From the NCBI RefSeq assembly GCF_024807615.1, contig NZ_JANUCJ010000003.1, forward strand, positions 620,001 to 684,000: a DNA stretch of 64,000 nt, read 5' to 3'. The stretch's first letter is position 1, and each line of letters begins with the position of its first letter. The notes beneath the pieces were generated by a model. The model was not told the origin of the DNA. It saw only the letters and a list, made by a program, of their open reading frames with translations, and ran no database searches. Of the stretch, positions 49,468 to 50,928 are shown piece after piece. This stretch comes from Tsukamurella ocularis (GTDB taxonomy: Bacteria; Actinomycetota; Actinomycetes; Mycobacteriales; Mycobacteriaceae). Position numbers and translations under genes: made by a program.

Positions 49468-49567
49468 GGGTGGTGATCCTACCGCCCGGCCGCGATCACC
49501 CCGGATTTGCTGCGGGCGAGACCGCCGCCCCGGGTCATCACGGGCGTGAGCGGCCCGCGGAGGAGGT

Positions 49568-49936
49568 TCAGGCCTCGTGGGCGGCGAACTGGGCGAGCGT
49601 CCGCTCGTAGGACTTGGTCACGCGCCCGGCGCCGGGCGTGATGCCCAGGGTCAGGGCCCGGAAGCCACCGTCGACCGACGAGGCCTGCACGCCCCGGTCC
49701 CGGAGCCGGGTGGCGATCGCGGCTGCGGTGGCGCCGTTGCCGCTGACGAGCAACCACTGAGCATCGGGGCCGGCGGCAGCGAGGCTGGTGGGGAGGCCGG
49801 GGACGAGCCGGGCCGCGACGGCGGCGGCGTCGAGGGCGACGGCACCGGGCAGGATGCCGTCGCGATTGCGCTCGGACTGGTCGCGGACGTCGACGACGAT
49901 CTGGCCGTCGGCGGGGGTGAAGTGCACGGGGTGCAT
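49568..49936 (-). CDS. Rhodanese-like domain protein lacking the catalytic Cys
   Basis: A 122-residue single rhodanese domain. The N-terminal VVDVRDQSERNRDGILPGAV is the family's VxDxRxxxE...IPGA motif, and the C-terminal VDGGFRAL is the G-G-xxxW-like end. The active-site loop reads LVSGNGATAAA, with Ser where sulfurtransferases have Cys, so classical sulfur transfer is not expected. The ATG at 49936 follows GGAGAA. A leaderless Cys-rich reading frame and a hairpin precede it, indicating control by cysteine supply. Possible roles are sulfur sensing or a non-catalytic carrier partner. Confidence 0.85.
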   Translation of the reverse strand: MHPVHFTPADGQIVVDVRDQSERNRDGILPGAVALDAAAVAARLVPGLPTSLAAAGPDAQWLLVSGNGATAAAIATRLRDRGVQASSVDGGFRALTLGITPGAGRVTKSYERTLAQFAAHEA

Positions 49937-50003
49937 CGAAGATTCTCCAGGAGGGAGGCGGAGCGCGGAAAGCGCGTCCGGGCAGCGGAAGGGGGCCGGG
50001 TTC

Positions 50004-50048
50004 CTAACGGACCCGACAACACTCCATGCAGCTGCGCACCTGGCTCAT
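50004..50048 (-). CDS. Cys-rich leader peptide MSQVRSCMECCRVR (attenuator uORF)
   Basis: A 14-codon frame from ATG 50048 to TAG 50004, with Cys at positions 7, 10 and 11, ends 67 nt before the rhodanese-like gene. A promoter (TTGCCG 50080-50085, 18 bp, TACTTT 50056-50061, minus strand) would start transcription at the ATG, so the frame is probably leaderless. Between it and the rhodanese start a hairpin (about 49961-49982) and a CU-rich stretch lie next to the GGAG. Polycysteine leaderless uORFs are known cysteine-responsive attenuators of sulfur genes in mycobacteria. Translation is inferred. Confidence 0.65.
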   Translation of the reverse strand: MSQVRSCMECCRVR

Positions 50049-50055
50049 GGCAGCG

Positions 50056-50085
50056 AAAGTAGCACCCCGCCGCGGCCTGCGGCAA
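50056..50085 (-). promoter_or_regulatory. Promoter of the leader peptide / rhodanese-like unit
   Basis: On the minus strand: TTGCCG (-35, 50085-50080), 18-bp spacer, TACTTT (-10, 50061-50056), then seven bases to the ATG at 50048. This spacing fits leaderless initiation. It sits just after the coaX stop codon. Confidence 0.55.
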
Positions 50086-50094
50086 GGGTTCGAA

Positions 50095-50928
50095 TCATGC
50101 ATGGCGCGAATCCCGCGCGCGCCGGTCCCGCTGCGCCCGGTTGGCGCACTCCCGCAGGTATACGGCCCGCAGACCCTGCAGCGTGAGGTCGGCGCGATGG
50201 TCGGTCACGGTCGAGCACTCGGTGGCAATGCCCTCGTCGAAACCGCCCGTCGCGACCACCCGGGCCCCGGGAACCACCTCGAGCGCGCGCCCGACGAGCG
50301 CGTCCACCATCCCGGCGAAGCCGTAGATGATGCCCGACTGCAGCGCCTCGACGGTGTTCTTGCCGACCACCGACCGCGGCGCGACGAGCTCAACGCGGCG
50401 CAGCGCGACGGTCCGCTCGGCGAGCGCGTCCAGCGCGCTCCCGACGCCGGCGGCGATCGCGCCGCCGAGGAACTCGCCCTTGGCGCTGACCACGTCGACC
50501 CGCGTCGACGTGCCGAAGTCGACGACGACGCACGGGGTACCGGCCGCCCGGCCGACCAATTCGAAGGCGCCGGCGGCGTTGGCGACGCGGTCGGTACCCA
50601 CCTCGCGCGGATTGTCCACGAGCAGCGGCACGCCGGTCTTCACGCCGGGCTCGAGGATGACGTGCTCCGCCGACGGGTAGTAGCGCGGCATCACGGCGCG
50701 CAGCGAGCGCAGCAGCTCGGGCACTGTCGACAGCACGGAGACGCCCGTCACCCCCGCGGGATCGACGCCCGCGCCCGTGAGGAAGCCGCGCAGGATCAGC
50801 GCGAGCTCGTCCGAGGTCATCCGCGGGTCGCTGCGCAGCCGCCAGGTGCCGAGCAGTTCCTCGCCCTCGGCGGACGCGAACAGCCCGACGGTGACCGAGG
50901 TGTTGCCGGCGTCGATCGCCAGCAACAC
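50095..50928 (-). CDS. coaX: Type III pantothenate kinase
   Basis: A 277-residue acetate/sugar-kinase-fold enzyme phosphorylating pantothenate, the first step to CoA. Motifs: DAGNTSVTVGLF (phosphate loop 1, residues 6-17), GTDRVANAAGAFEL (pantothenate site), and VVDFGTSTRVDVVSAKGEFLGG. GTG start at 50928 shares a base with the panD stop. It concludes the panC-panD-coaX run, so pantothenate synthesis and use are co-expressed. The C-terminus is basic (QRDRRARDSRHA). Confidence 0.95.
   Translation of the reverse strand: MLLAIDAGNTSVTVGLFASAEGEELLGTWRLRSDPRMTSDELALILRGFLTGAGVDPAGVTGVSVLSTVPELLRSLRAVMPRYYPSAEHVILEPGVKTGVPLLVDNPREVGTDRVANAAGAFELVGRAAGTPCVVVDFGTSTRVDVVSAKGEFLGGAIAAGVGSALDALAERTVALRRVELVAPRSVVGKNTVEALQSGIIYGFAGMVDALVGRALEVVPGARVVATGGFDEGIATECSTVTDHRADLTLQGLRAVYLRECANRAQRDRRARDSRHA

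Follow-up and report, generated by a model that had tools for sequence, protein, structure and literature searches.

A cysteine-codon uORF behind coaX in Tsukamurella ocularis, a putative variant of the polycysteine leader attenuators

Behind the coaX gene of Tsukamurella ocularis, a short upstream open reading frame (uORF) with three cysteine codons precedes a rhodanese-like gene, and the question raised by this locus is whether the frame couples expression of that gene to the supply of cysteine. The original prediction, made on the window (the whole stretch of 64,000 nucleotides analysed here), was a cysteine attenuator of the kind found in mycobacteria. Polycysteine leaderless short ORFs of mycobacteria were reportedly treated by Canestrari et al. 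in 2020. In the accessible portions of PMC13236596, PMC9031893 and PMC9094748, that study is cited for cysteine-responsive attenuation in M. smegmatis, and Shell 2015, in the portion available, places Cys-rich leaderless uORFs before orthologues of cysA2, Rv0485 and nirA (PMC4633059). Seliverstov et al. 2005 predicted cys leader peptides in Mycobacterium, in P. acnes and for B. longum cbs, with no conserved hairpins in the accessible part of that text (PMC1262725). Among the eight leader peptides given in a reannotation of Streptomyces lividans, in the part available, there is no cysteine leader (PMC8079986).

Anatomy of the leader and the gene behind it

All features of the locus lie on the minus strand. 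The upstream neighbour, outside the leader, is coaX (50928..50095), which encodes type III pantothenate kinase (PF03309, E = 1.3e-59). Directly after it, direct reading finds the proposed uORF at 50048..50004 (ATG to TAG), with 14 codons in 45 nt that encode MSQVRSCMECCRVR followed by the stop, the Cys codons being TGC, TGT and TGT. Both cysteines of the ECC motif are TGT, a codon never used in the seven neighbouring genes and gene stretches, where TGC occurs 7 times. A putative leaderless promoter at 50085..50056 is composed of TTGCCG (50085-50080), an 18-nt spacer and an extended -10 element, TGcTACTTT (50064-50056), in which TGc precedes the hexamer TACTTT (50061-50056). The hexamer lies 7 nt upstream of the uORF ATG at 50048, as first noted, and the block TGCTACTTT, read directly from the sequence, ends at the same distance from this ATG. 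In 14 of 14 close Tsukamurella leaders the TGCTAnnTTC before the ATG and the 7-nt distance are invariant. The strict consensus scan found no sigma-70 promoter in 49850-50200, so that promoter and leaderless start are inferred from spacing and conservation only; the leaderless promoter of the original prediction has its conserved extended -10 and spacing in its favour and the strict scan against it.

Downstream, hairpin P2 (50017..49995) spans the uORF stop with the arms GUCGGGUCC / GGaACCCGGC in the fold of the window leader; hairpins in the same position were also seen in other genera, by eye and in folds. The second hairpin, P3 (49980..49959), pairs CGGA with UCCG according to alignment and fold, judged by eye, and it shows a two-sided change to CGAA...UUCG in two relatives (L012, L013); in the P3 table the segment overran in L001 (the window leader), L002 and L010. 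A CU-rich stretch (49958..49950) follows, then the Shine-Dalgarno sequence GGAG (49948-49945), both read directly. The first base of GGAG lies 12 nt upstream of the rhodanese-like ATG at 49936, and a local CUCC:GGAG pairing is possible from both the reading and the fold. Of these elements one hairpin and the CU-rich stretch had been noted at first, and both were confirmed on reading, with a second hairpin in addition. No intrinsic terminator was detected in 49850-50200, i.e. the terminator hairpin and U run of a classical transcription attenuator are absent, and in an Rfam search of 49500-50500 the leader had no match, the two matches elsewhere in that stretch being at chance level and well short of the gathering score.

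The gene behind the leader (49936..49568) encodes a rhodanese-like protein of 122 residues (PF00581, E = 2e-6) and is followed by lysS and lsr2, both assigned with Pfam, and then by a clpC-like gene named by eye. Rhodanese sulfurtransferases carry as their hallmark a catalytic cysteine in the active-site loop. The window protein has zero cysteines, and in an alignment of six proteins it places a serine in the column that we take to be the catalytic Cys position of this loop; the hallmark was not found in it. The rhodanese-like assignment stands at the level of the protein family and does not extend to the catalytic residue, and because this cysteine is lacking, the role of the downstream gene in sulfur metabolism is indirect.

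In several genomes the reading frame of the rhodanese continues without a stop through the leader, and one might suspect that the leader codes for part of the rhodanese, either through a frameshift or as an N-terminal extension. There is next to no probability left for this explanation: the distance from uORF stop to gene start ranges from 63 to 82 nt in 16 genomes and not in steps of 3, the frame varies among the relatives, and in the window the first start codon of this frame after the uORF region is the ATG at 49936. A frameshift or fusion was rejected because the frame is not conserved among relatives.

Conservation within Tsukamurella and across the family

The uORF peptide is identical in 14 of 16 Tsukamurella genomes, the window's own included, which bears out the frame as originally proposed; the other two (L015, L016) have diverged Cys-rich endings, CCRLECCRIR and CCQECCRIR. 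The cluster of Cys codons near the stop is kept throughout, as C-M-E-C-C in the 14 and as CCRLECC and CCQECC in the other two. Loss of the Cys codons in close relatives with kept flanks, which would have spoken against an attenuator, was looked for in the 16 Tsukamurella genomes and not found. With an identical peptide in 14 genomes and Cys-rich versions in the remaining two, the uORF is, as far as this comparison reaches, not a chance reading frame. Across the 14 close leaders a single one of the 45 uORF positions varies. Synonymous variation affects 1 of 12 uORF codons (M, W and stop left aside) vs 58 of 75 codons of the downstream gene (amino-acid-invariant codons without M and W), both sets taken on the same tree (Fisher p = 7e-6). 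Judged by this codon comparison, the uORF is conserved as RNA and not merely as a peptide. The frozen synonymous sites also bear on the idea that the product is a functional small metal- or thiol-binding protein of the CxxCC type, for which the identical 14-residue peptide in 14 of 16 genomes would speak. Lengths and sequences of the peptide differ between genera, and the uORF adjoins its gene even in the three genera where the gene is displaced from coaX or inverted, so that a functional small protein appears highly improbable.

The sampling across the family comprised one genome per genus; 30 were searched and the coaX locus was obtained in 28, giving 28 loci from 28 genera. A Cys uORF accompanies the gene in 24 of the 28, namely 17 with an ECC uORF behind coaX, 4 with Cys variants (CQVCR, CCPQNCRAL, AQKCCLR and CCC) and 3 with an ECC uORF whose rhodanese-like gene lies further from coaX or is inverted, the uORF still adjoining the gene. 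The other four coaX loci have no Cys uORF, a short CC frame behind coaX at L169 being taken as chance, and the gene is present without a Cys uORF at L146, L150 and L024. Behind the 17 ECC uORFs adjacent to coaX, a cysteine-dioxygenase-like (CDO-like) gene and then a rhodanese match follow in 11, and a rhodanese-like gene in 6. The CDO-like label was tested on one protein, which matched PF05995 (E = 8e-11) and the PDB cysteine dioxygenase 8qfl (E = 6.7e-14) and had no NCBIfam match, and it was extended to the others by eye on the basis of shared motifs. The rhodanese of these CDO-like and rhodanese pairs in other genera is Cys-bearing. In genus g8 (L163, at about 2322 in coaX orientation) the frame behind coaX and upstream of a rhodanese-like gene reads MLRCCC and stop, a pure Cys run instead of ECC. 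At L145 and L152, diverged fused CDO-like/rhodanese proteins, named by eye, stand behind the uORF variants CCPQNCRAL and AQKCCLR.

The exact pattern GAGTGTTGTCRNRGCTGA was found in 209 of 401 family genomes, with a reversed control of 0 and at most one copy per genome among the matches listed. It occurs in 0 of 16 Tsukamurella genomes, where the uORF has a different ending. Of 249 genomes of the order, 42 belong to the family and 207 do not; this pattern was present in 7 of the former and 0 of the latter, an absence that applies to the exact pattern only. With a related exact pattern, 45 of 79 loci in named records had a rhodanese-like gene within 450 nt, nearly all of them from Gordonia, Williamsia or Tsukamurella. 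Of the other 34, one is cut by the locus end (L129), two are Mycobacterium loci before a CDO-like gene (by eye), and 31 without a match were taken as chance, two of these having been inspected. The looser pattern TGYNNGGAGTGYTGYC matched 202 of 401 genomes, gave many control matches and was dropped for counts. GAGTGTTGTCG occurs three times in the window genome, and the two other copies, which by eye fall within long open frames or at their beginning, were set aside. Locus L084, from a record named Kitasatospora arboriphila NRRL B-24581, has a Williamsia-like uORF and gene and is probably a contamination of the assembly. By these comparisons the window's uORF is part of a family-wide set of ECC-type uORFs before dioxygenase-rhodanese or rhodanese-like genes.

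The window locus is without a dioxygenase gene. Elsewhere in the same genome, a fused CDO-like/rhodanese gene, named by eye (L174:1475-2377, minus strand), has a rhodanese part with the sequence IVLCSEGYASS, and no Cys uORF was seen in the 300 nt upstream of it. It is a plausible history that the dioxygenase left the Tsukamurella locus and that the remaining rhodanese-like gene kept the sensor.

Pairing with the next start site in other genera

In many genera, the uORF segment GCAUGAG...CCAGGAGUGU is complementary to UCCUGGAG...CUCAUGC of the next gene. In the folds this pairing covers the Shine-Dalgarno sequence (helix P1) and the start codon (P0), and a third helix lies over the uORF stop. 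Folding all GGAG leaders to a consensus on their MAFFT alignment yielded nothing meaningful, and pairs were therefore counted on anchors, the start codon and CUGG. The set comprised 55 distinct leaders (76 GGAG leaders outside Tsukamurella, minus 7 without CUGG, plus L152, duplicates removed), and 646 of 715 cells held canonical pairs. Re-dealt 3' arms reached a mean of 628.5 (sd 3.0), with 0 of 500 attaining 646, a gap that is small owing to strong conservation; sliding the register by 1-3 nt left 250-342 canonical cells. Compensatory changes were seen at both sites: the start codon AUG is replaced by GUG together with U by C in the uORF (L151, L210, L254), and GGAG of the uORF by GAAG together with C by U in the ribosome-binding site (RBS; L152). 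The pair at the first base of the start codon fails in 9 of 55 leaders. It should be kept in mind that the leaders are related by descent and unevenly sampled, that gene starts were picked by a script favouring a Shine-Dalgarno match, and that three unrelated leaders were removed from the leader set (146 to 143).

Against shuffled RBS sequences, the uORF:RBS duplexes had a median z of -2.39 in 58 CDO leaders and -2.35 in 12 GGAG rhodanese leaders. Opening of the RBS, from Shine-Dalgarno sequence to AUG, was modelled with an assumed ribosome footprint that reaches 16 nt upstream and 13 nt downstream of the start of the A-site codon, the folding ignoring co-transcriptional order. In 20 of the 64 CDO leaders the median cost was 14.5 kcal in the free state, 7.4 with the ribosome at the first ECC cysteine and 8.0 when the uORF was shuffled; for the 13 GGAG rhodanese leaders the cost fell from 13.9 free to 6.4 stalled, with 7.2 for the shuffled uORF. 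At least 3 kcal were gained in 17/20 and 11/13 leaders, respectively. A ribosome at the stop codon gave 9.2 in the CDO and 11.4 in the GGAG rhodanese leaders. In the former, stop vs stalled amounts to 9.2 vs 7.4, and to 9.9 vs 9.1 over a wider region, so that the CDO start site is opened almost as much by a ribosome that has reached the stop codon, and any response to cysteine would have to come from the time that ribosomes dwell. The gain in accessibility of the stalled state over the stop state exceeded threefold in 5/20 (g44), 1/8 (g10), 3/20 (g6) and 7/8 (g49) leaders. These foldings support the view that, in CDO and GGAG rhodanese leaders, the translation start of the next gene would become accessible while a ribosome is held on the uORF, and pairing, covariation and folding together back the attenuator logic in these relatives.

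The pairing also bears on an arrest of the TnaC type, in which the nascent peptide would sense free cysteine and stall the ribosome at the stop codon. The C-terminal endings of the ECC[R/Q]xG type are strongly conserved in many genera, as such an arrest would have it. The peptides nevertheless vary (CMECCRVR, QECCRG, CCC, CQVCR, KCCLR, CCPQNCRAL) while the Cys codons stay, and in the 55-leader set RNA pairing accounts for the conservation of the Glu codon and for some of that of the first TGT, which makes a peptide-mediated arrest very unlikely.

The cysteine-rich uORF probably lets the ribosome sense the supply of cysteine, as far as its codons tell, and it is likely that the 45-nt frame serves as the sensor in a leader that acts in cis and belongs to a short leaderless mRNA. 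Ribosomes would start at the 5'-terminal AUG of this presumably leaderless mRNA and, with charged tRNA-Cys scarce, would pause at the Cys codons (SC-ME-CC). In the other genera, where the RNA of the uORF can pair as an antisense with the Shine-Dalgarno sequence and start codon of the next gene, the held ribosome would uncover the start site and turn translation on, low cysteine presumably meaning ON. A point against this mechanism is that the CDO-like enzyme of the relatives would consume cysteine, which is odd for a gene that is on at cysteine shortage. The same sensor may work with the opposite sign, a ribosome stalled at low cysteine turning the gene off and high cysteine turning it on. This would suit a cysteine-degrading dioxygenase, and a CDO-like gene does follow in 11 of the 17 genera that have the ECC uORF directly after coaX. 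Furthermore, the window leader is slightly more closed when stalled than when free (8.5 vs 7.5 kcal, the stalled costs running from 8.5 to 9.0). In silico, though, the CDO start site becomes open when a ribosome sits on the uORF, and release of sulfite from other thiols by the CDO-like enzyme would suit cysteine shortage, so that the opposite sign is considered unlikely and low cysteine as the ON state is retained as the preferred reading.

Gordonia and Williamsia are, in these models, intermediate between the CDO leaders and Tsukamurella. Their duplexes are no better than shuffles (z -0.04, 48 leaders). The uORF start GUGAUC faces GAUCAC (24/50, for example in Gordonia L076) or GAUCAU (8/50) before the Shine-Dalgarno sequence, AUGAUC faces GAUCAU in 2 leaders, and the opening cost of the wider region falls from 10.5 to 7.9 with a control of 8.1 (24/50 leaders).

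The output step in Tsukamurella and the known leaders

In Tsukamurella the sensor half of the leader is intact, a statement well supported by the uORF comparisons. For the output step, the uORF:RBS duplexes of 15 leaders are no better than shuffles (median z 0.33); at its centre P1 has lost two pairs in 14-15 of 15 leaders, and of the 7 P0 positions 5 are kept in no more than one of 15. The median cost of opening the RBS in 16 leaders is 8.3 kcal free vs 8.4 stalled, with 8.2 for shuffled uORFs. At least 3 kcal were gained in 3/16 leaders, and in 0/16 in a recount with a longer 3' flank. A wider ribosome footprint had a weak effect (18.0 to 15.7, control 15.8), and the consensus structure showed almost no covariation (-0.33). 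In the window leader the Shine-Dalgarno sequence is held by the local CUCC:GGAG helix in all five states folded. In 11/16 leaders a ribosome at the first ECC cysteine makes the four Shine-Dalgarno bases more than threefold more accessible than one at the stop does, the median accessibility being at most 0.002. Release of the RBS by a stalled ribosome is, in these models, unsupported in Tsukamurella by most tests, the one accessibility test being mixed. The original claim of a cysteine attenuator holds to the extent that a conserved, leaderless-looking Cys-codon uORF stands in cis to a putatively sulfur-related gene, and as regards RBS release in Tsukamurella it is not supported by most of the foldings.

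The signal in Tsukamurella may be carried by other pairings in translation control, or by Rho-dependent termination in the C-rich leader. In the latter case, regulation would be transcription attenuation, the leader recruiting Rho after the uORF unless a stalled ribosome protects it. The stretch from uORF stop to Shine-Dalgarno sequence has a median of 57 nt with 54% C and 23% G in 16 Tsukamurella leaders, there is no intrinsic terminator in 49850-50200, and Rho was proposed for mycobacterial cys leaders, in the accessible part of PMC1262725. Nevertheless, the short CDO leaders, whose data are explained by RBS pairing, have a similar C excess (median 29 nt, 41% C, 15% G), and the involvement of Rho is rated as unlikely.

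For the translational reading taken to the whole family, we see even chances. A single-copy leader would combine three jobs in some 40 nt, i.e. sensor by Cys codons, leaderless start, and antisense of the next Shine-Dalgarno sequence and start codon, with the target start codon (AUG or GUG) co-evolving with the leader peptide. It would first have controlled a thiol dioxygenase-rhodanese pair and so linked the oxidation of thiols to the supply of cysteine; in Tsukamurella and Gordonia the sensor would have been kept, with a rhodanese-like gene lacking the catalytic Cys and a rewired output. If so, cysteine-sensing leaders would extend beyond mycobacteria to 24 of the 28 sampled genera of the family, and a testable RNA pairing would explain a conserved Glu codon in a leader peptide. 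A type of cysteine-oxidising enzyme would come under a cysteine sensor, raising the question of sign and substrate, and Tsukamurella would be a natural case in which the sensor is kept and the output is seemingly rewired.

Like the mycobacterial polycysteine leaders, the locus has a short, leaderless-looking ORF that carries Cys codons close to its stop and precedes a putatively sulfur-related gene; in the relatives' loci there would also be translation attenuation via sequestration of the RBS. It differs in the CxECC/ECC motif, which replaces the Cys run, and in occurring as one copy per genome among the matches listed. The next gene is also different, here CDO-like plus rhodanese or a rhodanese-like protein, as is the antisense relation of the uORF to Shine-Dalgarno sequence and start codon, a pairing not found in Tsukamurella. 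The polycysteine device first proposed is recovered in the clustering of Cys codons near the stop, and not in a Cys run. Since release of the RBS was not found in Tsukamurella by most of the foldings, the window leader is classed as working like a polycysteine attenuator, a putative variant of those known from mycobacteria. The open literature searched showed no paper that deals with this locus, with an ECC leader or with a Cys leader preceding a cysteine dioxygenase; the loci of Canestrari 2020 lie outside that scope and could include it. The cys leaders of Seliverstov 2005 also precede sulfur genes, with Cys runs towards the end of a short ORF and no intrinsic terminator, but other operons are concerned and, in the accessible part of PMC1262725, no conserved hairpins are reported, in contrast to the covarying pairings described here. 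The LEU element before actinobacterial leuA, from the same portion of that text (PMC1262725), is similar in that a run of leader codons pairs with the Shine-Dalgarno box, and it is distinguished by leucine codons, a pseudoknot and another gene.

A second candidate cysteine leader is present in the same genome. It encodes MDGQGELLASRRHIDYLRVCSSGCRA followed by a stop and ends 79 nt before a sulfite/nitrite reductase-like gene (PF01077, start at 2502 of locus L171, minus strand), which is followed by a cysH-like gene named by eye. The two leader sequences are unrelated, and MDGQGELLASRRHIDYLRVCSSGCRA has no ECC motif; common to both is a short ORF with terminal Cys codons before a putatively sulfur-related gene.
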